This document shows, piece by piece, positions 313 through 42,664 of a stretch of DNA of 54,417 nucleotides. Made by a program: the position numbers and the translations under genes. Every line of letters begins with the position of its first letter. Positions within the stretch are counted from its first letter, which is position 1. Origin of the DNA: a virus; IMG/VR virus record IMGVR_UViG_3300049893_000864, positions 1 to 54,417 of that record, one strand, 5' to 3'. The notes beneath the pieces are model-generated. The model had not been told where the DNA came from, did no database searches, and saw only the letters and a list, made by a program, of their open reading frames with translations.

Positions 313-1782
313 TTAGGTTAAATTGGTTCCAGAAATAACCCATTCAGATGTTCCTGCTCCGGTGGCTACTTTTACGGCAGTAGCAATACCATATGCAGTC
401 AATGTTCTTGATCCAGATGTAGCAGGAACACCAGCTAGATACATAGGATCATTACATGCAATTGTAAGTATACCTGCACCACGTTGATTGATAAAAGTTA
501 TCGCAGTTCCAAGGTCATAAGCAACAGATGAATGAGCCGGAATTGTAAAGGTGCGAGCAGTTGTATCTGATGTTGGATGAAGAATAATCTTACCAGCATC
601 AGATGCAACTAGAGTATATGCAGTTGATTGAGAGTTCAAACTCATAGAAGCTGCACCACTATATCCAGATGATCCAGATGATCCAGAGAATCCACTATAT
701 CCAGAAATTCCACTCCAACCGCTAATGCCTGAGAATCCAGAGTAACCAGATTTACCAGAGAATCCAGAATATCCACTGATACCAGAGAATCCAGAGTAAC
801 CAGAGACACTACTGAATCCGCTGATGCCTGAATAACCAGACACACCACTCCAACCGCTAATGCCTGAGAATCCAGAGTAACCAGAAGCACCTGCACCAGA
901 AAATCCAGAGTAACCAGAAATACCTGACCCACTGAATCCACTGTAGCCAGAAATGCCACTCCATCCAGAGATTCCGCTAAATCCCGAATAACCACTAACA
1001 CCAGAATAACCAGATGCGGCAGCGGCACCGGGTAGACCACTAAAACCAGAGAATCCTGAGATACCTGAACCAGAGAATCCTGAGATACCTGAACCAGAGA
1101 ATCCTGAGATACCACTGAATCCAGAAATACCAGAGTAACCAGAAATACCACTCCAACCAGAGAATCCAGAAATACCAGAGTAACCAGAAATACCAGAGAA
1201 TCCAGAGATTCCACTGAATCCAGAGATTCCACTGAATCCAGAATATCCAGATTGTCCAGCAAAAGTGATTGAAAACCAAACATAAGTTGGATCAGCAAAT
1301 GGATTGTTTCCAGAATAATCTATTACTGTTCCAAACCCTATAGTTGTTAACGAATCAACAACTGTTATTGATGTAATTGGAAATAATAGGAAAGATTCAA
1401 CGTCCCAAATCTTGTAAATCTTAATCCAACCATAAACAGGACCACCATTAGCTATTAATGAATTCTTAAAGGCTGTATTGAGACTTCCGCCATATAATGA
1501 ATCAATATTGGCTTGAATACCAGTCCAATCTTTTTGATTTCCACCACCAACACCAACAAAAACTCCTGTTACATTATATCCCTGTATTGTATCAAACTCA
1601 TACTTGAAATCAAATGTACCACCAGAAGGTACTTTTGAAATTACTTCATTAACTGCGCCAACTAAACTAGATGTAACTGCTCCTGAAAGAGATGCAGGGT
1701 CTCCCACATTAGAAGAAATGTCATTTGTTTTAGTGCGCCATACCTCAAAGGTATCGCTACGAGCGACTGTTGGTTGAGTCAT
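313..1782 (-). CDS. Collagen-like tail fibre protein with SG[YFI]SG repeats
   Basis: The protein has 489 residues. Residues 1-176 form a globular N-terminal part beginning with a fibre-type motif (DTFEVWRTKTND), probably the virion anchor. Residues about 177-376 are almost wholly a Gly-X-Y-like repeat of GFSG/GYSG/GISG/GWSG units, expected to form a long fibrous shaft. Residues 377-489 form a compact C-terminal domain of a type often seen at the ends of phage fibre proteins (GKIILHPTSDTTARTFTIPA and TSEWVISGTNLT), probably a trimerisation or tip domain. A late promoter motif lies 37 bases upstream inside the preceding gene. The fibre role is strong from architecture and location; attachment to a specific baseplate partner is inferred. 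Confidence 0.85.
   Translation of the reverse strand: MTQPTVARSDTFEVWRTKTNDISSNVGDPASLSGAVTSSLVGAVNEVISKVPSGGTFDFKYEFDTIQGYNVTGVFVGVGGGNQKDWTGIQANIDSLYGGSLNTAFKNSLIANGGPVYGWIKIYKIWDVESFLLFPITSITVVDSLTTIGFGTVIDYSGNNPFADPTYVWFSITFAGQSGYSGFSGISGFSGISGFSGISGYSGISGFSGWSGISGYSGISGFSGISGFSGSGISGFSGSGISGFSGFSGLPGAAAASGYSGVSGYSGFSGISGWSGISGYSGFSGSGISGYSGFSGAGASGYSGFSGISGWSGVSGYSGISGFSSVSGYSGFSGISGYSGFSGKSGYSGFSGISGWSGISGYSGFSGSSGSSGYSGAASMSLNSQSTAYTLVASDAGKIILHPTSDTTARTFTIPAHSSVAYDLGTAITFINQRGAGILTIACNDPMYLAGVPATSGSRTLTAYGIATAVKVATGAGTSEWVISGTNLT
655..1254 (-). repeat. Coding tandem repeat for G-[FYIW]-S-G units
   Basis: About 200 codons of near-tandem 9-12 base units (TCTGGATATTCTGG-like on the minus strand) encode the collagen-like shaft. 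The units differ mainly by Tyr/Phe/Ile/Trp replacement and by synonymous changes. Short exact internal duplications are visible, for example two adjacent copies around 1060-1105. The repeat is likely to vary in length by slippage or recombination. Confidence 0.9.
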
Positions 1783-10299: not shown

Positions 10300-10307
10300 T
10301 ATTTATT
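10300..10307 (-). promoter_or_regulatory. Late promoter-like motif AATAAATA
   Basis: AATAAATA on the minus strand lies 22 bases before the GTG start of the gp8-like gene, with TTAGGAG between. It is one mismatch from the T4 late consensus and positioned like the other late motifs here. Confidence 0.5.
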
Positions 10308-13300
10308 ACAAACGAATGATACCGCTATATCCACTATAGCCGCTATATCCACTATAGCCACTACCAAAAAAACTACTATAGCCGCTATATCCACTATAGC
10401 CGCTACTAAAACCCCAAACCCATTCGTTTGTTAGTTGATAATCTGTTACTCCTGAATAACCACTATAACCACTTGAATTTGACCAAGTAAGATAAGTGCT
10501 TACTACTTTTTGTTTATGTTGACTATTATCCCAAACATCATTGTCAATTTGTTCTACTGTAACATCTGCAAATTGATCAATAGTTGCTACTGGTTCATAA
10601 TTGACCCAATATAAATTGCTTAATGGATCATCTGACCTATATTGATAACCATAATATTGTTGATATAATTGGAAGCGTTGCGGTGAAAATCGTTGCATGT
10701 CCTGCACTTCAAGACTTCCATGCTGATAACCAAGATAAAGCTTAAAAACATCATTAATTGGATTACCATAAGGGTCTTTTCTCGTAAACAAGTCAACCAT
10801 AAGTTGATCCAACATCAAGCTTTGTAGGTCTTGTTTTCCAAGTAATTTGTAACCTGCTGGATGAAGCATAAGCTTGATAACATCCTTATAATCCAATAAG
10901 GACATCGCATCCCATTTATTAGGATCATCCGATAGTACCGATACAGTCTTGATAGAATATGAGAAATCCTGATATTCATGACCATCTTGTAATCTAATAG
11001 TTGGATTGCTCAACATACCAAAATTGGTGTTAAATACTGAAGATTCATTGAACAAATTGTTGTTATGAGCCAACAAATTTGCCCGTGAATATCTAAGGTA
11101 TTTAGCAGTAGCACCACTTGTTAAGCCTACTAAATCTGCATCATTGATTGCAAAGCTAAACTCGTGAAGAAAGTATACAAATGATGGTTTAACTGATGAT
11201 TCATCAACAATAAGGAATCCATCTTCCGTTATGAAGGTATAACTATCAGTAGCATTTTCAATTTCAAGCGTATTAGTTGCTAGATTAAAATCCTCAACAT
11301 ATCCATGAGGACCGGCAGTATAAGCCACTCCAGAATATCCACTATAACCGCTGTAAGCAGAACCACCACTGTATCCAGAAACACCACTGTATCCAGAATA
11401 CCATACATCATAATTATAGTTTGCGTCATATACCAATTCACCACGCTTCAAATCTCCATTTCCAAATTCAGCAATACCTGTGATACATGGTAATACCATT
11501 GGTGTAATATCGTAGTTAATGCCATTGTTAACAATCTCAATAGATTTGATCTTACCTATACTATTAGAGTAAGCTAGGACTCTACCAGAATATCCACTTG
11601 AACTTGTGATTTGCGTTAGTGGAATCTTATCGTATCCAGTTCCTTTTTTCGATTGAATAACTCTTGTAATGATACCAGAATATCCACTTTCACCAAACTT
11701 CATATTTACTGGTGATAAATGACCAGTTCCAGAATATCCTACATCTAATAGGATAACTAATTTGAATGTAGTATAATCTTCATTGCTAAATGGATTAGCA
11801 GATGATGATGATAATTTTGGTCCTACTGTAATATCGTATGCATATGGACCATCGTTTCCAATTGAAACTATAGGCCATTCAATGTATATAGATGGATCAT
11901 TTAGTTTCTCTATCCTCAACTTATAGTCACATTCAATGTTGTTGTTAACTAATATGAAATAAGGTTCAAATGCTTCCGAATAAAATGCGTATATATTCGT
12001 AATTATATGAGTGAATAACTCTTGATCCCCGCCTCCACCAGAACCCTTCCAATACCCATTATTACCATTCATAGTTGGATCGGCTGATGGTGTATACCAA
12101 GTTGTACGATCTAAATCATCAGAATCTAGTACAAAAGGAACCCCCGAATATCCACTTACAGCAGTGATAACTCCACTAACACCAAATACATCAAATCCAA
12201 TACCTGAATATCCTTCTAGTTCAACATAAGGATTGATGTAATTTGATCCACCATCAAGAACCTCAACCTTCTTGATCCTATATGTTAAATTGACAGTAGG
12301 GGCACCACCAGAATAGCCACTATAACCAGATACAAATTGAGTTGGAAGATGGAAATACGGAGTTGAAGTTACAAATTCTCCTCGGCCACTAAATCCAGAA
12401 TAACCACTATGATTGGAAATATCTACACCAGAATATCCAGAAGCAATCGTTCCTCTAACCTTTGTTAACACCAATCCAGAAGTATCTGAGTCCTTTTCTT
12501 CAATCAAGAACCTATATGTTCCGTCTGATAGGGTATTATATCCTGTTGCTCCAGCATCAAGAATTCCATGTTCATTGGCAGAATCAACATCAAATGTAAA
12601 GTATGGTAATCCTGACGTAATTCCAGAGTAACCACTGAATCCAGAGTAACCACTGAATCCAGATGAATTGAAAACTGTCCTAATTACTGGATCAACATAA
12701 TTTGATCCACCATCAAGGATAGTCATTGTCAATGCTGTACCTAACTTACCAAGAGTTCCAGAAGCACCAACTCCATTGACTTGAACATCAATATCAGAAC
12801 ACTCCATATCAGCGGCAGTTAGAAGTGGAACTGGTACTGGCACATTAACTAAGTGTCTAGCCCGAACTTCACCCTTCGTAAAATAGTAGATTCCAGACTT
12901 AGTGAACATAATGCTTGCGTAACCAAGTTCACTTGTACCACTAACAAGAACCTTAACCAATTTAGTTGAAGCATCAGTTACAACGAAATAGATTTCATTG
13001 CCATACCTATCTGTTATACCAAACAGTTTTAAGACATCATCTGTTGTCCAACCATAACCACCATCAATTACTTCAATGGTATCAATTTCCAAAACAACTT
13101 GTCCAGTTGCACCATCTCCATCTACTACAATAACACCCTCTGCACCAGAACCAACACCATCAATATCTACGTATTCAACAAGGTCTCCGTTGTTGTAATT
13201 TGCTCCGGGAAGTTCAACTATGGTTTCTTCAATTCCACCAGTAGAAGTTTCTCCAACCACACATGTAAACCTTGTACCAGAACCATCAACAGTATATACC

Positions 13301-14016
13301 GTATCACCAGAACTATATAGACTACCACCATCGAGAACTTCAACATAAGCAATAACCTTGATCAACGTTAAATCAATATCTCCATCATTGAGATGAATTG
13401 TTATTGGATATGCCTTGTTAAAGGTATGATTACCATTGTTACGAATGGTAAGTTTCCAATAGTTTGAACTATCAATTAGATCGATGAACACTACATTATC
13501 TACAAATGCCTGAGACTTAGTTTCCGGTTGCGAGATTACATCACCTTCAAGAATTGTTGCATCAAAATCCAATTCTGTCGTAGATACAATCATCTGAATT
13601 GATGAAAAGAAGTCATTATCAGAACCACGGATGATATGATTCTTACCATAATCTAATGATGCATCAATATTGTAGAACTTGTCGAAGATATATTTGAATG
13701 AGTTTTCTGTACCCTTTGCCAAATACAACTCTCTCATGAATTTCAAAAATAGCCGCTCATCAAACGGAACTAACGTATTCTCCATACCAGTTGGTAGAAT
13801 ACGTTTTTCAATCTGCTCAATTGATTCTTCATCAGTTCTATCAACATCAAATCTATCATCTAATTTGCGAAGAACATCCAAAGGATACCCTTCTTGTTCC
13901 AAGAATTGATAGTATGCCTTTAGGAATTTGGCAAAGTTGGGAGCCTCATAATTGATAGCATCAGGTATCTGCCTGATTACAACTGAGGATACTTTAGGTT
14001 TGACTGATAATGTCAT
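10306..14016 (-). CDS. 7: Baseplate wedge protein, gp7-like, with scattered SGYSG insertions
   Basis: The protein has 1236 residues, close to the size of T4 gp7 (1032). The N-terminus (VIRQIPDAINYEAPNFAKFL) resembles the start of gp7-type wedge initiators in T4-like phages. The gene lies between gp6 and gp8, as in T4, and its start overlaps the gp6 stop by 4 bases. Unusually, SGYSG or (SGYSG)n tracts interrupt it at a dozen or more places and form its C-terminus (GSGYSGYSGYSGYSG then IIRL). GGSxY beta motifs (VLDGGSNYINP, ILDGGSNYVDP) recur between them. The core probably joins wedge proteins gp8, gp10 and gp53; the inserts look like exposed loops. Assignment rests on synteny and the N-terminus. 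Confidence 0.75.
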   Translation of the reverse strand: MTLSVKPKVSSVVIRQIPDAINYEAPNFAKFLKAYYQFLEQEGYPLDVLRKLDDRFDVDRTDEESIEQIEKRILPTGMENTLVPFDERLFLKFMRELYLAKGTENSFKYIFDKFYNIDASLDYGKNHIIRGSDNDFFSSIQMIVSTTELDFDATILEGDVISQPETKSQAFVDNVVFIDLIDSSNYWKLTIRNNGNHTFNKAYPITIHLNDGDIDLTLIKVIAYVEVLDGGSLYSSGDTVYTVDGSGTRFTCVVGETSTGGIEETIVELPGANYNNGDLVEYVDIDGVGSGAEGVIVVDGDGATGQVVLEIDTIEVIDGGYGWTTDDVLKLFGITDRYGNEIYFVVTDASTKLVKVLVSGTSELGYASIMFTKSGIYYFTKGEVRARHLVNVPVPVPLLTAADMECSDIDVQVNGVGASGTLGKLGTALTMTILDGGSNYVDPVIRTVFNSSGFSGYSGFSGYSGITSGLPYFTFDVDSANEHGILDAGATGYNTLSDGTYRFLIEEKDSDTSGLVLTKVRGTIASGYSGVDISNHSGYSGFSGRGEFVTSTPYFHLPTQFVSGYSGYSGGAPTVNLTYRIKKVEVLDGGSNYINPYVELEGYSGIGFDVFGVSGVITAVSGYSGVPFVLDSDDLDRTTWYTPSADPTMNGNNGYWKGSGGGGDQELFTHIITNIYAFYSEAFEPYFILVNNNIECDYKLRIEKLNDPSIYIEWPIVSIGNDGPYAYDITVGPKLSSSSANPFSNEDYTTFKLVILLDVGYSGTGHLSPVNMKFGESGYSGIITRVIQSKKGTGYDKIPLTQITSSSGYSGRVLAYSNSIGKIKSIEIVNNGINYDITPMVLPCITGIAEFGNGDLKRGELVYDANYNYDVWYSGYSGVSGYSGGSAYSGYSGYSGVAYTAGPHGYVEDFNLATNTLEIENATDSYTFITEDGFLIVDESSVKPSFVYFLHEFSFAINDADLVGLTSGATAKYLRYSRANLLAHNNNLFNESSVFNTNFGMLSNPTIRLQDGHEYQDFSYSIKTVSVLSDDPNKWDAMSLLDYKDVIKLMLHPAGYKLLGKQDLQSLMLDQLMVDLFTRKDPYGNPINDVFKLYLGYQHGSLEVQDMQRFSPQRFQLYQQYYGYQYRSDDPLSNLYWVNYEPVATIDQFADVTVEQIDNDVWDNSQHKQKVVSTYLTWSNSSGYSGYSGVTDYQLTNEWVWGFSSGYSGYSGYSSFFGSGYSGYSGYSGYSGIIRL
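10319..10407 (-). repeat. SGYSG-coding tandem repeat at the C-terminus of the gp7-like gene
   Basis: Tandem copies of TATAGTGGATATAGCGG-type units encode (SGYSG)n in two blocks separated by SSFFG, at the extreme C-terminus of the wedge protein. The codons differ from those of the fibre gene repeat (TATTCTGGA type), so this is not a simple copy of that tract. Confidence 0.85.
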
Positions 14017-16249: not shown

Positions 16250-19090
16250 TTATGCGACCGATAGCTTACGATCAAACATTCTTTGAAGGGTTGAATCACC
16301 TGATCTTGGATCACCAGCACCAACATACTTGTCATTTGATTGATTAACGTTTGTAGTTGGTGCATTAACAATCGTATTGTTCTGAGTAGGGGCAGTTTTT
16401 GACGATACTGTAGGAACAATCGCTTGTGGATTCTTCATTGGTGAAGGAGCAACAGTTGGAGTACCACTTACACTTGGAGTTGTCAATGATGAACTAGATG
16501 CAGCAACAGGTGTTGGAGCAACTGCATCTGATCTTCCTGTATCAAACTCACCTAATGGCGAAACATTCTTTTCAGGCTCGCCTTGACTACCACCAGAATT
16601 TTTAGATGCTGATGGACTTACAGATTCTTGATTTCCGCCAATAGGTGTTGGAGTTGACATTGATTTCTTATCATCTCCTCCAAGGTCTTGAATTCTACCA
16701 TTTCTTAGGCTAACATTGAATCCTTCATGATTTCTCATTGTTGCCATCAATGCTTCACGTTCTTCTGATGAATATTCAGACATTTTCTTATCAGCACCAA
16801 CGGCATTGATCATCACCTTTTGATATACTTTGGTGTTATTCTCATTCGGCGGTGCCCATTTATGAACAGCTTCACTCAAAGTCAACTTTTGATAGGTTGG
16901 ACCAAAGAACAAATCTTCTTGAGCCTTCTTACCAATTGCAAGAGATGGAAATACGGCAAAACCGCCCTTATCACCACCAACAGCACCATGTTTTGCAGCC
17001 CAGCTATTAGCACCATTATAACGAATGTTACCCGGATTGTTGTTACGCCACGCAACTGTACCAGTTTTACGAATGGTCTTTCCACCCCATGTTTTAACAA
17101 CAATGTAACCTTTACCAGATTCAACGACTGACTCAATAGTGTTCAAATCATCACCAGTTTCGTTTTCTTTTGGAATGATTGCACTAGCAATACTACTACC
17201 ACTTGTCGCCGCCGGTTTCTTCAGATCAGAAGCAGTTTTTGATGATAAATTAATTCGATTGTAGTTAGAAACTACTCCTATACCAGCACCAATAGCGCCG
17301 CCAACAGCACCGCCAACCGCTGCACCAACTGGACCAAGGAACATGCCAACAGATGCACCTAATCCTGCTCCAGAAAGTGCAGAACTTGCAATATCAGTAG
17401 TAGCCGCTTTATTGTTAGCTACACGTTTTTCTTCTTCTGTGGCACCTGATTTATTAGCTTCTTCTTCATAATGCTCAGTAGCTTTATCTAATGCCCATCC
17501 ACCAGCTATACCTAATGCTGCACCAAATAAACCACCACCAACTCTACCAATTTTTTTGAGCCAACTACCCTTACCAGTTGGTTTTGGTTCAACTGGTTGA
17601 CCAGTCTTAGGATCAACTTTTGTTGGTACTTCACCAGCACCGCCCGGAATCGATGGTTCTACAGTTGGACCTCTTGGAGTCCTACGAACTCCCGGTGCAT
17701 CACCGCCCGGAATCGATGGTTCTACAGTTGGACCTCTTGGAGTCCTACGAACTCCCGGTGCATCACCGCCCGGAATCGATGGTTCTACAGTTGGACCTCT
17801 TGGAGTCCTACGAACTCCCGGTGCATCACCAGACGGTGTTCTTCCAGCATTCCTAGTTTCACGTATTCTAGTAGCCCGATCAATCATTCTACCACCAAAG
17901 TTAGTTAATGCTTTGATACCAAATAACTTTCCAAGCATCATCAAAAGTTTACCACCCATCGTTAAGATAGCTGGTACAATCATCATAATAGCAGCTAGAA
18001 TTTTTGATAGGAATCCATCTTCCTTTTTAGTAACTTCCTTACGAGTATTCTTCTCAATTTTCTTGAGAAGATCAAGCATCTTTTCATTCTCACGATTCTT
18101 CTTCAAGATAGTTTCAGTTTGAGACGTTTTTGCTACTGGAGATTCGCTACTACGCTTAAGCCTATTTGCTACAGATTCCTTAAATCTGGCCCATAATGAA
18201 GGTTTCTTTGGTGAAGTTTTAGTAGTCTCTTGGTCTCTTTTAATATCTTGAAGAACTGATTCCTGACCTTCTTGTTGTCCTTCTTCAGCACCTTCAGGAG
18301 AAGATTGTTCTGATCTTTTGTTTTGATCCTTATCCTCTTCTTTTTCCTTTGCTGCCCGTTGTTCTTTGCTATACTGAATAACACCCTTAGTAAACAAAGC
18401 TGCTCCAGCAGCAAGACCAAACAAACTCTTGTGTTGATGCGCTCCCATCAAAAAGGCACCACCTGCGGCTATTGCTGCATTCTTGCCTATTTGCCTTGCA
18501 ATCGATCCCTTCTTTTCAGGCGGTCTTTCAGTTGTAGGTTTCTTATTCTGTTTCCTAATTCCAGATGGCCCTTCATTTGGATTAAAGACTTCTGGGGTTT
18601 CAGGTGAAGATGATTCAGGTAATGGAGCATTACTACTGACTTTATCATCCAGTAATCCAAGAATATCTACCATGACATATTCAGGATCACCATTAGGTGA
18701 CATGAAGTAATTTTTCAAATTATCATATTGTTCTTCCTTCAATGAAGCAAAATTTTGGAAGTGACGAAGAATACCATTCGGTCCTTTATACAACTTATCT
18801 TCCCAAATACTCATCATGTTAACAATAAGTTGTTCCATCATGTTTCGCTTACTGCCCATCTTGAACTTCTTAAAGACAGCAGAATCCATCATATGAAGTG
18901 TTAAGTACTTCTTCACATTCTTTCTGAAGTACGCTTCATATGCTTTTTCAAGCATAGTCTTAGCCAAACCGATTTGTAGTTTACGGTTTGGTTTCATGAA
19001 TTCACCATCTAACCAATCAAAGAAATCAGTAAATTCCTTGCTGGTATAGGTTTCCTTCACTTTCTTAGGCGATTTCTTTGTATTGGTCAT
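16250..19090 (-). CDS. Tape-measure-like tail protein with peptidoglycan-cleaving domain
   Basis: The protein has 946 residues. 1-150 is helical and charged; 150-200 is Pro/Ser-rich; 204-235 is hydrophobic; 325-352 is a probable coiled coil; 360-400 is strongly hydrophobic; 421-484 is three identical 21-residue repeats (GGDAPGVRRTPRGPTVEPSI); 510-535 and 570-607 are Gly/Ala-rich hydrophobic; about 675-790 carries AWRNNNPGNIRYNG and GGFAVFPSLAIG, a virion lysozyme/transglycosylase-like domain; the rest is Ser/Thr/Pro-rich. Position directly after a gp26-like chaperone and its frameshift partner, plus long hydrophobic segments, fits a tape measure (gp29 equivalent) that also opens the cell wall. 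The spike gene here lacks lysozyme, which agrees. The catalytic residue was not identified. Confidence 0.75.
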   Translation of the reverse strand: MTNTKKSPKKVKETYTSKEFTDFFDWLDGEFMKPNRKLQIGLAKTMLEKAYEAYFRKNVKKYLTLHMMDSAVFKKFKMGSKRNMMEQLIVNMMSIWEDKLYKGPNGILRHFQNFASLKEEQYDNLKNYFMSPNGDPEYVMVDILGLLDDKVSSNAPLPESSSPETPEVFNPNEGPSGIRKQNKKPTTERPPEKKGSIARQIGKNAAIAAGGAFLMGAHQHKSLFGLAAGAALFTKGVIQYSKEQRAAKEKEEDKDQNKRSEQSSPEGAEEGQQEGQESVLQDIKRDQETTKTSPKKPSLWARFKESVANRLKRSSESPVAKTSQTETILKKNRENEKMLDLLKKIEKNTRKEVTKKEDGFLSKILAAIMMIVPAILTMGGKLLMMLGKLFGIKALTNFGGRMIDRATRIRETRNAGRTPSGDAPGVRRTPRGPTVEPSIPGGDAPGVRRTPRGPTVEPSIPGGDAPGVRRTPRGPTVEPSIPGGAGEVPTKVDPKTGQPVEPKPTGKGSWLKKIGRVGGGLFGAALGIAGGWALDKATEHYEEEANKSGATEEEKRVANNKAATTDIASSALSGAGLGASVGMFLGPVGAAVGGAVGGAIGAGIGVVSNYNRINLSSKTASDLKKPAATSGSSIASAIIPKENETGDDLNTIESVVESGKGYIVVKTWGGKTIRKTGTVAWRNNNPGNIRYNGANSWAAKHGAVGGDKGGFAVFPSLAIGKKAQEDLFFGPTYQKLTLSEAVHKWAPPNENNTKVYQKVMINAVGADKKMSEYSSEEREALMATMRNHEGFNVSLRNGRIQDLGGDDKKSMSTPTPIGGNQESVSPSASKNSGGSQGEPEKNVSPLGEFDTGRSDAVAPTPVAASSSSLTTPSVSGTPTVAPSPMKNPQAIVPTVSSKTAPTQNNTIVNAPTTNVNQSNDKYVGAGDPRSGDSTLQRMFDRKLSVA
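17638..17826 (-). repeat. Three perfect 63-bp direct repeats in the tape-measure-like gene
   Basis: Copies at 17638-17700, 17701-17763 and 17764-17826 are identical base for base. Each encodes 21 residues containing GVRRTPRGPTVEPSIP. Perfect identity including third positions implies recent in-frame expansion. Confidence 0.97.
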
Positions 19091-19259
19091 TCCTGTGTTC
19101 TTGCTCTTCTTCTTTCAACCGTTGAATCAACAAGGTAACATAAACATCACGCTCCCACGGCATCATTCCCTCAAGTTCTTCAAGTCTCATATTGTGAAAG
19201 TACATCAAATTGAAGTTGGTTCTTACATAATCCTCTAATGTATCATGGGATGATACCAT
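19065..19259 (-). CDS. Small tail chaperone extension (second frame of gp26-like gene)
   Basis: The 64-residue frame contains MPWERDVYVTLLIQRLKEEE, a hydrophobic/acidic pattern like the T part of tail-assembly chaperone pairs. Its ATG (19259) overlaps the TGA of the gp26-like gene, and the frame is open further upstream, across the slippery site. It may be made as a fusion by -1 frameshift (about 297 residues in total), by coupled reinitiation at TGATG, or both. It ends inside the start of the tape-measure-like gene (26-base overlap). The chaperone role is inferred from layout and the frameshift signal. Confidence 0.75.
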   Translation of the reverse strand: MVSSHDTLEDYVRTNFNLMYFHNMRLEELEGMMPWERDVYVTLLIQRLKEEEQEHRNDQYKEIA

Positions 19260-19271
19260 CAATCGAAAAAA
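19240..19271 (-). promoter_or_regulatory. Probable programmed -1 ribosomal frameshift signal
   Basis: The slippery heptamer T-TTT-TTC (19265-19271) sits in the correct zero-frame phase at the penultimate codons of the gp26-like gene. An 8-base spacer is followed by a perfect hairpin, GTATCAT-CCC-ATGATAC (19240-19256). A -1 slip reads FF-RLMVSSHD into the overlapping small frame and bypasses the TGA. Heptamer, phase, spacer and hairpin are all directly visible; use in the cell is inferred. Confidence 0.8.
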
Positions 19272-19957
19272 TTGTCGATGCCCTCTGTTCTGATGTTAAT
19301 GTCACTCCCACATGATTTACATTTCGCTACATCCTCATATATGATCTTTGGCAATGAATCGATCCATTCACCAATCATAGCAACTTGGCCTTCGGTTAGG
19401 TTATCGAGCCAATCCATTAATTCTGCATGAGTCAAATCCTCTGCGGCAAATACCTTATCCTTCATTGTAATCGACTCAATCATACCAGCAGTTACGGCTA
19501 GTGCAGCATTCTGTTCAGTTGCATCCTTTAGATACCGCACGGTATTAATCGTTGGATGTCTCATAGTCACAATAGTAGTTGTATCGACCTTGATATGTTC
19601 AGACTTCGGTTCAGAAGTGATCTTCGTTTTACTCAAGTCGATAATGTATGGTTGTTCATGATTGCATGATGAACAATTAATCGTAGCTTCAATCTGTGAT
19701 CCAATCGATTGTTCTCTTACCTTAATGAACAAAAATTCAGTATCCGCAATTGGAAGCTTGGCTATATTCACTTTGCCAAATGTGCATAGTTCTAGCACTT
19801 GTGCAATAGCCGTTGAGATTTCCTCAATGTTGTTACCTTCCCTTGCAAGAAGCATGATCTTTTCTTCCCGCATAACGAAAGGACGGTATTTGATCTTCTG
19901 TCCTGAAACTGGAAGTGTCAAATTGTAAGTAGGTAGGGTTGGTGCTGGTAAAGGCAT
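19259..19957 (-). CDS. 26: gp26-like baseplate hub / tail assembly chaperone
   Basis: The 232-residue protein starts LPTYNLTLPVSGQKIKYRPF and continues MREEKIMLLAREGN, the pattern of the T4 gp26 baseplate family. It carries two CxxC pairs (INCSSCNHEQ and AKCKSCGSDI), suggesting one zinc site. The family is near T4 gp26 in length (208). The start has GGAG before ATG. The last codons form a -1 slippery sequence leading into the next frame, directly upstream of the tape-measure-like gene, as in lambda G/GT or P2 E/E'. It probably coats or folds the tape measure rather than staying in the virion; that part is inference. Confidence 0.85.
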   Translation of the reverse strand: MPLPAPTLPTYNLTLPVSGQKIKYRPFVMREEKIMLLAREGNNIEEISTAIAQVLELCTFGKVNIAKLPIADTEFLFIKVREQSIGSQIEATINCSSCNHEQPYIIDLSKTKITSEPKSEHIKVDTTTIVTMRHPTINTVRYLKDATEQNAALAVTAGMIESITMKDKVFAAEDLTHAELMDWLDNLTEGQVAMIGEWIDSLPKIIYEDVAKCKSCGSDINIRTEGIDNFFD

Positions 19958-19967
19958 ATTATCTCCA

Positions 19968-20537
19968 TTAAGAAGTAACGAGTTCTTCAGTCATTTTTTC
20001 GTATGCAAATGTAATTGGTATGGTCGAAACATTTCCACCTGATGATGCACCAAATGAAACATCACCAATCATTTTCGGCCATGCATTTACTATGGTTACA
20101 TCATATTTACGCTGATCCATTTTGTTCAGTGCGTAAATAGTTATTTTTGGTGCTACATAATCATCAAAGAAGCTAATTCCATGACCCTCAGTTGAGTAAA
20201 TTGCTTTCCACCACTTTGTAAAGTAGTCACGAACCAAGTTCTTTTCGTCCAAGTAGAAAGTCAAGGTAACAGGATCATAACTGATACCATACGGCATTTC
20301 GAATGGTGCTTCTTCTAGTCTAATTGGGGAACTCAAAAGATTGCGGGCAGGAAAACTAACAGACGCACAGTATAATTCAACCATATTAATGTGTTCTTGA
20401 GGAAGAACTGTTGGTGGGTGAAAGAATACCTCATATCTGGTATCAAACTGTGCCCTGTACTTCTTATTGATAGCCTCAGTAAATTTACCCAACGATGAAG
20501 TTGGTTGGGAATTATTAGATGGACCTGATAGCGGCAT
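19968..20537 (-). CDS. Tail-tube-fold (gp19-family) protein
   Basis: The 189-residue protein shows the spacing of tube proteins: YCASVSFPARNLLSSPI, then MPYGISYDPVTLTFYLDE, RDYFTKWWKAI, a central FDDYV segment and a final YDVTIVNAWPKMIGDVSF. T4 gp19 has 163 residues. As it stands beside gp26-like and tape-measure genes rather than the sheath gene, it may be a tube-initiator or hub-proximal ring rather than the main tube subunit. It follows the next gene with a 1-base gap and has AAGGAAAG upstream. Confidence 0.65.
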   Translation of the reverse strand: MPLSGPSNNSQPTSSLGKFTEAINKKYRAQFDTRYEVFFHPPTVLPQEHINMVELYCASVSFPARNLLSSPIRLEEAPFEMPYGISYDPVTLTFYLDEKNLVRDYFTKWWKAIYSTEGHGISFFDDYVAPKITIYALNKMDQRKYDVTIVNAWPKMIGDVSFGASSGGNVSTIPITFAYEKMTEELVTS

Positions 20538-40817: not shown

Positions 40818-41873
40818 ATGGCATCAAAGTTTCAGCCTAAGTTTAAAGACCAAACAGGACTAACTGGAGCATTTAGATTTGGTCCACCATCACCGGAATT
40901 TGGTGATGCACTTGCTTCACCAACAAACGGTGGCTACACCACGTACAAGTATCCTAGTGATATTGAGAATACTATGAGCAATGTGATGCTGTTTATGTTC
41001 AATTCTATTGAAGATGATCTTGAGATAAAGGGTACAGTTGCTGGATTGCCTCTAAATTGGGATGATTTAGTTGGGGCGGTTGTTGGAGAAGTTCCTATAC
41101 GGAATCGTGCATATCAAGCATTACACCAACAAGGTGAGTTAGACAAGATTATTGGTGCTATCAATAAAATCGACAAGTTGAATTTGGCTGGGTTGAAAAT
41201 GCGAAAATATAAGAGAATCAATAGAGCAGCTTTGTTACCAATGCCGACGGTTCAGGTAAGTTCTAATGCAAGATGGCAGGATATTGATGTCACTAGCGCC
41301 GTAGGTATGTTAGCAAATATTATGTTAAGCGACAAAAGCGGTGGTGATAAGCTTGTTGATACAATGCGTGACATGGGTACAGGATTCATGCATTTTGGTA
41401 TCGATAAAGCTACCGGAACAGAGGGACTTGGTAGTGCATTAACAAAGAGCGTAGGTAATTCGTATCAGGATCAAGCTTTCCAAGGCATGACACGTAGGCA
41501 ATTTCGATTTATTTGGAATTTAGCGCCGAAAAATCAAAAAGAAATGGACAACTTGCAGCAATTAATTGCATTATTTCGATTTCATGCTCACCCTAGTTTT
41601 TACGTTGACCAGAATAATTCCGGTAATTACTTGGTATTTCCAGAACAAATTGACGTTGAAATGTATACCAAGGACGAAAATGACTCATTTATCCAAAATG
41701 GTTGGGTGCCGAAAATTAGTTCATCTGTGATCGAATCGGTTGAAATTGACTACGCACCGAACAATCAATGGTCTTTCATTAAGAATGCGGGCGCACCTAC
41801 CCACTACACACTTACAGTTGCGATCAAGGAAGTATTGCCATTGACCAAAGCTGACATTGCGAGAGGCTTCTAA
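40818..41873 (+). CDS. Baseplate tail-tube cap / junction protein, gp48 or gp54-like
   Basis: The 351-residue protein has LLPMPTVQVSSNARWQDIDV and a C-terminal domain FRFIWNLAPKNQKEMDNLQQ, SFYVDQNNSGNYLVFPEQID, VIESVEIDYAPNNQWSF and GAPTHYTLTVAIKE, the shared C-terminal pattern of T4 gp48 and gp54 (364 and 320 residues). These seal the hub and start tube assembly. Which of the two it equals cannot be settled here. GGAAAGAAA precedes the ATG and its stop overlaps the gp53 start (TAATG). Confidence 0.82.
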   Translation: MASKFQPKFKDQTGLTGAFRFGPPSPEFGDALASPTNGGYTTYKYPSDIENTMSNVMLFMFNSIEDDLEIKGTVAGLPLNWDDLVGAVVGEVPIRNRAYQALHQQGELDKIIGAINKIDKLNLAGLKMRKYKRINRAALLPMPTVQVSSNARWQDIDVTSAVGMLANIMLSDKSGGDKLVDTMRDMGTGFMHFGIDKATGTEGLGSALTKSVGNSYQDQAFQGMTRRQFRFIWNLAPKNQKEMDNLQQLIALFRFHAHPSFYVDQNNSGNYLVFPEQIDVEMYTKDENDSFIQNGWVPKISSSVIESVEIDYAPNNQWSFIKNAGAPTHYTLTVAIKEVLPLTKADIARGF

Positions 41874-42664
41874 TGGGACTCTTTACAGGCTATCCCGGCA
41901 TCGTTTATCCGTTAACCGACGAAAATGGTGTTGTATTACCATATACCTTAACTGACGTTACTACACGGGTTAAAATCGCCATGAGTCCTGAAGCGGTAAA
42001 GCAAATGACCTTTGCTTACCAGATTAAGGATGGCGAAACACCCGAATCGATTGCATTTGCTCAGTATGGTCAAGTTGGCTTGTATTGGACTATTATGCAC
42101 GTCAACAACATTTTCGACTACCTCAATGATTGGTGTATGTCTGCTGACAACTTGACTGCATTTTGCGAGGACAAATATGGCTTTACTGGCGACGAACCTA
42201 ACTACTTGAAAGTCATGTATTGGGCAGATGCTAATGGCAACTATGTTTTAAATGGCGATTCAGTTGATCCAAATGCAATCGGTGTTAGTGGATATTCAGG
42301 ATTGTTTACATATGGTTATTCTGGACTATCAGGCACGTCAGGCTATTCTGGCTATTCAGGACAGTCTGGTACATCAGGCTATTCCGGTTATTCTGGATAC
42401 GTTCACATTGACGGATTCAGCGGGCATAGCGGGTCTGGAATGAGTCCAAACACAACTGCGTCGCTATTAGAAGCCATGACGTTAGCTTATGTCAACTCCA
42501 CAACTGAAATATTAGATTGGTTCGATACATTACACCCAGTTACATACTTTGAATACGAATCGATTTTGAATGAGAAGAAACGTGAGATTCGATTGATTCG
42601 CAAGGAAAACCTTCGTAACTACGTGATTGCGTTCAACAATCAATTAGCTAGGACTATTCCGTAA
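41873..42664 (+). CDS. 53: Baseplate wedge protein gp53 with SGYSG insertion
   Basis: The 263-residue protein (T4 gp53: 196) starts with a wedge domain, then KDGETPESIAFAQYGQVGLY and WTIMHVNNIFDYLNDW, the LysM-like core of gp53. Residues 139-188 are an SGYSG-rich insert (GYSGLSGTSGYSGYSGQSGT). The conserved C-terminal helix (YESILNEKKREIRLI) then resumes. The insert accounts for most of the extra length. In T4, gp53 bridges wedge and hub. Start and stop both overlap neighbours by TAATG. Confidence 0.88.
   Translation: MGLFTGYPGIVYPLTDENGVVLPYTLTDVTTRVKIAMSPEAVKQMTFAYQIKDGETPESIAFAQYGQVGLYWTIMHVNNIFDYLNDWCMSADNLTAFCEDKYGFTGDEPNYLKVMYWADANGNYVLNGDSVDPNAIGVSGYSGLFTYGYSGLSGTSGYSGYSGQSGTSGYSGYSGYVHIDGFSGHSGSGMSPNTTASLLEAMTLAYVNSTTEILDWFDTLHPVTYFEYESILNEKKREIRLIRKENLRNYVIAFNNQLARTIP
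42287..42436 (+). repeat. SGYSG-coding tract inside gp53
   Basis: About 50 codons encode SGYSG/SGTSG/SGQSG units between the LysM-like core and the C-terminal helix of gp53. The codons (GGCTATTCTGG/GGATATTCAGG) are mixed. Confidence 0.85.

Follow-up and report, generated by a model that had tools for sequence, protein, structure and literature searches.

The gene for a gp26-like protein in a viral genome fragment of 54,417 nt (IMG/VR record IMGVR_UViG_3300049893_000864, positions 1 to 54,417; this whole stretch is called the window below) ends in a −1 frameshift signal, which is confirmed as genuine. Programmed −1 frameshifting at this site very probably yields a short and a long form of a chaperone from one gene; that ribosomes slip here, how often they do so and that the products act in tail assembly are what we infer from the sequence. 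A programmed −1 frameshift had been suggested in the first-pass annotation of the window, and the suggestion is supported by conservation of the slippery heptamer, by a switch of reading frame in the pattern of variation and by the lack of start codons in a number of relatives.

Layout of the junction

The gp26-like gene (19259..19957, minus strand) encodes the short chaperone form (TAC-N) of 232 amino acids, and its ORF (19957-19259) ends with ...GGC ATC GAC AAT TTT TTC GAT TGA. The heptamer T TTT TTC is located in phase at 19265..19271 (minus strand), exactly where the first-pass annotation had placed it, and the other coordinates given there are also correct, all on the minus strand. The stop codon TGA of the 0 frame (19259..19261, minus strand) overlaps an ATG of the −1 frame (19259-19257) in the sequence TGATG. 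An 8-nt spacer, GATTGATG (19257-19264, minus strand), separates the heptamer from a perfect 7-bp stem, GTATCAT/ATGATAC, with a CCC loop (19240..19256, minus strand); both had been described before and are present in that form. A Shine-Dalgarno (SD)-like sequence, AGAGGG (19281..19286, minus strand), is found 9 nt 5' of the heptamer and is a likely stimulator; it was absent from the first-pass annotation.

After the slip, the −1 frame (19065..19265, minus strand) continues for 66 codons (RLMVSSHDTLEDY...KEIA), is translated as RLMVSSHDTLEDYVRTNFNLMYFHNMRLEELEGMMPWERDVYVTLLIQRLKEEEQEHRNDQYKEIA and encodes a gp51-like C-terminal domain. As had been claimed, this frame is open and ends inside the start of the next gene: its TAA (19067-19065) is located within an ORF that starts with the ATG at 19090, which gives an overlap of 26 nt. 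The predicted fusion of 231 + 66 = 297 amino acids agrees with the size of about 297 residues proposed earlier. Both the in-phase heptamer and the open −1 frame of an X XXY YYZ-type −1 frameshift are, in this way, present in the window. The next ORF (16250..19090, minus strand) encodes 946 amino acids and is probably a tape measure gene with a muralytic-like domain, while the gene just upstream of the gp26-like gene (19968..20537, minus strand) specifies a gp19-like protein of the tail tube family.

Conservation of the slippery heptamer

Relatives were collected from viral contigs by two profile scans, of which one searched for the gp51 part and the other for the gp26 part only; together they gave 160 loci, while a scan for related loci using the single window protein found none. 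Adding the window and four reference phages brought the examined set to 165 sequences, and 127 loci were left after clustering to <85% junction identity. The gp26 proteins of the relatives used are 26-39% identical to that of the window. The first four relatives (DSL-LC02, S-N03, BUCT-ZZ01 and Pelagibacter phage Mosig) have TTT TTC in the same place, followed by an open −1 frame. Alignment of the junction across relatives, which the first-pass annotation had put forward as a check, revealed that heptamer and −1 frame go together in these sequences: in every relative that has both parts (162/162), an in-phase T TTT TTN precedes the gp51 part, which is read in the −1 frame. The last base of the heptamer is C in 138, T in 20 and A in 4 of them.

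All 127 loci of the <85% identity set carry an in-phase T TTT TTN at the gene end, while this heptamer occurs only 20 times in the 29,174 codons of the bodies of the same 127 gp26 relatives. The related T TTT TTH is present in phase four times in the 12,637 codons of the long ORFs of the window, and only the copy at the end of the gp26-like gene adjoins a stop codon. The first Phe codon is TTT in 127/127 loci as opposed to 72% in the gene body (log10 probability −18), and the codon before it is NNT in 127/127 as opposed to 64% expected from codon usage (log10 probability −25); both values assume independent sequences and are optimistic, as the relatives share ancestry. In four loci, the second codon of the heptamer is the Leu codon TTA, and it is therefore the nucleotides of the heptamer rather than the Phe-Phe pair that are conserved. 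Before the heptamer, variability by site follows the 3-base periodicity of frame 0; immediately after it, the periodicity is that of frame −1, third positions having values of 0.63, 0.53 and 0.56 vs 0.14-0.51 at first and second positions. Coding therefore passes from frame 0 to frame −1 at the heptamer.

Upstream and downstream elements

In 109/127 loci, the end of the SD-like element is 8-9 nt upstream of the heptamer; in 112/127, the distance is 7-9 nt. Its duplex with the anti-SD has an energy of −6.3 kcal/mol in the window and a class mean of −7.0 kcal/mol, compared to −5.0 kcal/mol at gp26 start sites. The Glu codon of the element is GAG in 64/90 cases vs 20/77 for other Glu-Gly pairs in the same genes (p = 4.6e-19, under the same optimistic assumption of independence). 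Judged by this codon choice, the element is under strong nucleotide selection. In the window, AGAGGG is about 21 nt away from the ATG of the −1 frame and, thus, too far to act as an SD sequence for it. No description of an SD-like stimulator at the gp26/gp51 junction was found in the literature searched.

The hairpin that the first-pass annotation had regarded as part of the signal is there as described, but it is no better than chance: a stem of at least 7 bp was obtained in 23% of the synonymous randomisations of the window (p = 0.23), and the local folding z value is only about −1.1 to 0. The window hairpin was consequently rejected as a separate line of evidence after synonymous randomisation. 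Taken as a class, the relatives fold more strongly at +5 to +45 than their synonymous randomisations do (mean z −1.77); significant downstream structure belongs to the class and not to the window. The folds of 60 relatives, inspected by eye for a common downstream stem, vary in structure, and no single shared hairpin was evident. In a group of loci (L008, L031, L038 and L064), the structure downstream of the heptamer is very strong (−20 to −24 kcal/mol in 60 nt), and a long outer stem immediately follows the slip site. For the window, the selected SD-like element upstream is likely to be the stimulator and is better supported in that role than the hairpin.

Translation of the −1 domain and rival explanations

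The −1 product has its profile match in the gp51 family: phrog_634 ('baseplate hub assembly catalyst'; E = 2.1e-20, profile positions 59-118 of 121). In the relatives, the domain is conserved and its frame open beginning with the very first codon past the slip. The 54-kb window, which is a fragment, was searched for a separate, fused gp51 gene, and none was found. A joined frameshift CDS at the junction of gp26 and gp51 is annotated in none of the GenBank records consulted (L001-L004, L166-L171, L173-L177 and L180-L187), which either lack gp51 or give it as a gene of its own whose start is late or arbitrary. All non-T4-type records of which the annotation was examined list gp26 and gp51 separately or omit gp51.

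Such annotations of a separate small gene are what would be seen if the gp51-like domain were made as a small protein of its own, through termination and reinitiation at TGATG (ATG 19259-19257) and with no fusion being formed. The TGATG overlap would allow this in the window, as would the TTG/ATG codons situated two to three codons inside the −1 frame. Against it, the 15 codons that follow the slip contain no ATG, GTG or TTG in 39/127 relatives (no ATG in 66/127), and the peptide R[IL]xLSHxSLExYY is retained even where the start codons are missing. Where ATGs are present in the −1 frame, they are not preceded by an SD sequence (mean −0.8 kcal/mol vs −1.5 kcal/mol at internal Met codons; 0.0 in the window). 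Reinitiation would also leave the frozen synonymous sites of the heptamer, and an SD-like element placed as for slippage, unexplained, and as the sole route to the domain it is very unlikely. In view of the TGATG overlap, some reinitiation may take place in the window in addition to frameshifting.

Marginally less probable again is that RNA polymerase rather than the ribosome slips on the T run, by which mixed transcripts would arise that encode the fusion. The run consists of six T residues, and of eight in some relatives, but it is closed by a C after six in 138/162, and a run of six is short for efficient transcriptional slippage; furthermore, only a ribosome would have a use for an SD-like element 9 nt upstream. 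The chance that two Phe codons next to a stop and an adjacent −1 frame are a coincidence, or that a sequencing error is involved, is negligible: chance did produce the three other in-phase copies of T TTT TTH in the long ORFs of the window, but the conservation of the junction in 162/162 sequences at the gp26 identities given above, and in independent complete genomes as well, already refutes this explanation. Programmed −1 frameshifting by the ribosome is, hence, the preferred reading.

Protein families, neighbouring genes and chaperone function

The gp26-like protein belongs to PF12322 (T4_baseplate; E = 3.3e-52, 177.8 bits vs a curated cut-off of 24.5) and matches phrog_150 with E = 1.8e-53. 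Its AF2 model, for which an alignment of the window and IMG/VR loci only was used, has a pLDDT of 92.7 and matches the models of gp26-type proteins of many myoviruses in BFVD. A Foldseek search of the PDB with this model gave no match at E ≤ 0.001, known tail chaperones included, and the gp26 sequence profile retrieved nothing from the PDB below E 0.2. The upstream gp19-like ORF matches PF06841 (E = 8.9e-07) and phrog_45 (E = 3.6e-30).

The 946-residue ORF was called tape-measure-like in the first-pass annotation. In the window, it has hydrophobic, Gly/Ala-rich stretches and only a weak match to an endolysin-type PHROG, while no tape-measure profile matched it; the relatives favour the name, as Melnitz and Vibrio phage F86 have ORFs in or near the same position that match tape-measure PHROGs (phrog_1535, E = 2.5e-8; phrog_3336, E = 1.5e-4). 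In the record of phiM12, an ORF close downstream is annotated as similar to tape measure proteins. The next ORF is, on these sequence matches, likely to encode the tape measure protein. It specifies three near-identical 21-residue repeats (GDAPGVRRTPRGPTVEPSIPG), and the internal muralytic-like domain is located at about residues 660-800. Runs of SGYSG/SGFSG repeats, resembling a shared collagen-like or shufflable insert, are present in three structural ORFs of the window (313-1782 and 10306-14016 on the minus strand and 41873-42664 on the plus strand).

The junction is, like that of lambda G/GT, located between the genes for the tail tube and the (in the window, presumed) tape measure protein, and by sequence it has the layout of a short N form and a long N+C form, of which T4-type gp51 is a natural N+C fusion. 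Because of this position and layout and the published identification of gp26 and gp51 as chaperones, the two products are likely to be a tail (tape-measure) assembly chaperone in a short and a long form, by analogy with lambda gpG/gpGT. The first-pass annotation had considered gp26 and its partner to be tape-measure chaperones; this agrees with the title of Vladimirov, Gautam and Davidson (2022) and the papers citing it, in which gp26 and gp51 are the tail assembly chaperones of T4-like phages, and the idea is consequently not new.

Distribution and the exception of T4

The same layout was found in syn9, P-HM1, P-SSM4, S-CAM8, phiM12, a vibriophage of the KVP40 species and Aeromonas phage phiWae14, as well as in Stenotrophomonas phage Bhz51 (Menderavirus), Aeromonas phage 65.2 (Emmerichvirinae), Vibrio phage F86 and Melnitz. 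Rhizobium phages (including RHph_N34) and Agrobacterium phages of the Pootjesviridae have it with T TTT TTG and T TTT TTT. In Ackermannviridae (L173, L174 and L176) and Vibrio phage K471 (L177), the −1 domain is kept, with ATT/CTT TTC before the stop and no canonical heptamer; two of these four have no ATG near the site. Going by the genomes compared, the layout is common to most of the T4 superfamily sampled, T4 itself not included. The lambda-like layout that had been claimed for a phage of the T4 superfamily, therefore, holds for the window and its relatives and does not extend to T4.

A slippery site is lacking in T4, SA35RD and Konradin, in which gene 51 is a separate, divergent gene encoding about 250 amino acids. 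T4 gp26 and T4-type gp51 are homologous (E = 7e-9). The N-terminal part of T4-type gp51 matches the gp26 profile (E = 5e-10) and its C-terminal part matches the −1 domain (E = 1.6e-4); by these matches, T4-type gp51 is a natural one-frame fusion of a gp26-like N-terminal part and the −1 domain. In a tree of gp26 and the N-terminal part of gp51, the T4-type gp26 and gp51 sequences cluster (95/92), the root not being fixed. The grouping is consistent with a duplication in that lineage, for which the direction is the one that we infer. On balance we lean toward SD-assisted frameshifting on U UUU UUC as the ancestral state of the gp26/gp51 pair, T4 being derived and a duplication having replaced frameshifting.

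Comparison with known systems

In E. coli dnaX, the heptamer is accompanied by an SD-like stimulator about 10 nt before it and by a hairpin on its downstream side. The window shares with it the heptamer, the upstream SD-like element and a downstream hairpin; dnaX differs in that its heptamer is A AAA AAG, it is a cellular gene, and its frameshift product is shorter instead of longer.

In lambda G/GT and P2 E/E', as here, a −1 frameshift ends a short chaperone ORF between the tail tube and tape measure genes, and a short form is made together with a rarer long form. The window gene differs from these in that it belongs to PF12322, with no sequence relation seen, and in having a U UUU UUC heptamer and, 9 nt before it, a conserved SD-like element as the likely stimulator. 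T4 gp26 and gp51 belong to the same protein families as the window products, the C-terminal domain of T4-type gp51 being the one read here in the −1 frame; unlike in the window, gene 26 of T4 has no slippery site and gene 51 stands apart as a divergent gene. A chaperone frameshift has also been described for Pseudomonas phage Adele and the Vandenendeviridae (PMC12846349), a phage family different from that of the window.

As worded in its title, the work of Vladimirov et al. (2022) proposes a mechanism other than frameshifting for T4-like chaperones. Passages in papers that cite it state that some T4-like phages have separate short and fused genes (PMC10885494) and that TAC-N genes of T4-like phages have known poly-T slippery sites, for which Vladimirov et al. 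are given as the source (PMC12846349). Part of the layout distribution has, thus, probably been published already. The first-pass annotation named no documented frameshift in gp26; the latter paper implies that poly-T sites of this kind are known in T4-like phages. The SD-like stimulator is the part for which no earlier description was found in the literature searched.

Proposed mechanism

Most ribosomes would reach the stop codon of the gp26-like gene and produce the short chaperone of 232 amino acids. A fraction would pause over AAT TTT TTC as AGAGGG pairs with the anti-SD of the ribosome; downstream RNA structure may also contribute to pausing in many relatives. The two Phe tRNAs would move back one base on U UUU UUC, and the slipped ribosomes would read the −1 frame and add 66 residues to give the long form of 297 amino acids. 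By analogy with lambda gpG/gpGT, short and long forms would coat the tape measure protein specified by the following gene and assist in recruiting tail-tube subunits.

Significance

The window adds a new, distant member to the known frameshifted tail chaperones. A section of the review by Atkins et al. (2016; PMC5009743) describes the G/GT-type frameshift as widely conserved in long-tailed phages 'except T4'. Here, five or more groups of the T4 superfamily have the layout, KVP40-type and Aeromonas 65-type phages from T4's own family among them, and the T4-type genomes are the exception. According to passages in Sullivan et al. (2010; PMC3037559), gp51 of cyanophages and marine vibriophages lacks the first ~200 residues; frameshifting from gp26 would account for this observation, and an ancestral frameshift, if true, would explain it for these phages. 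The gp26/gp51 site may also serve as a compact phage test case for SD-stimulated −1 frameshifting.
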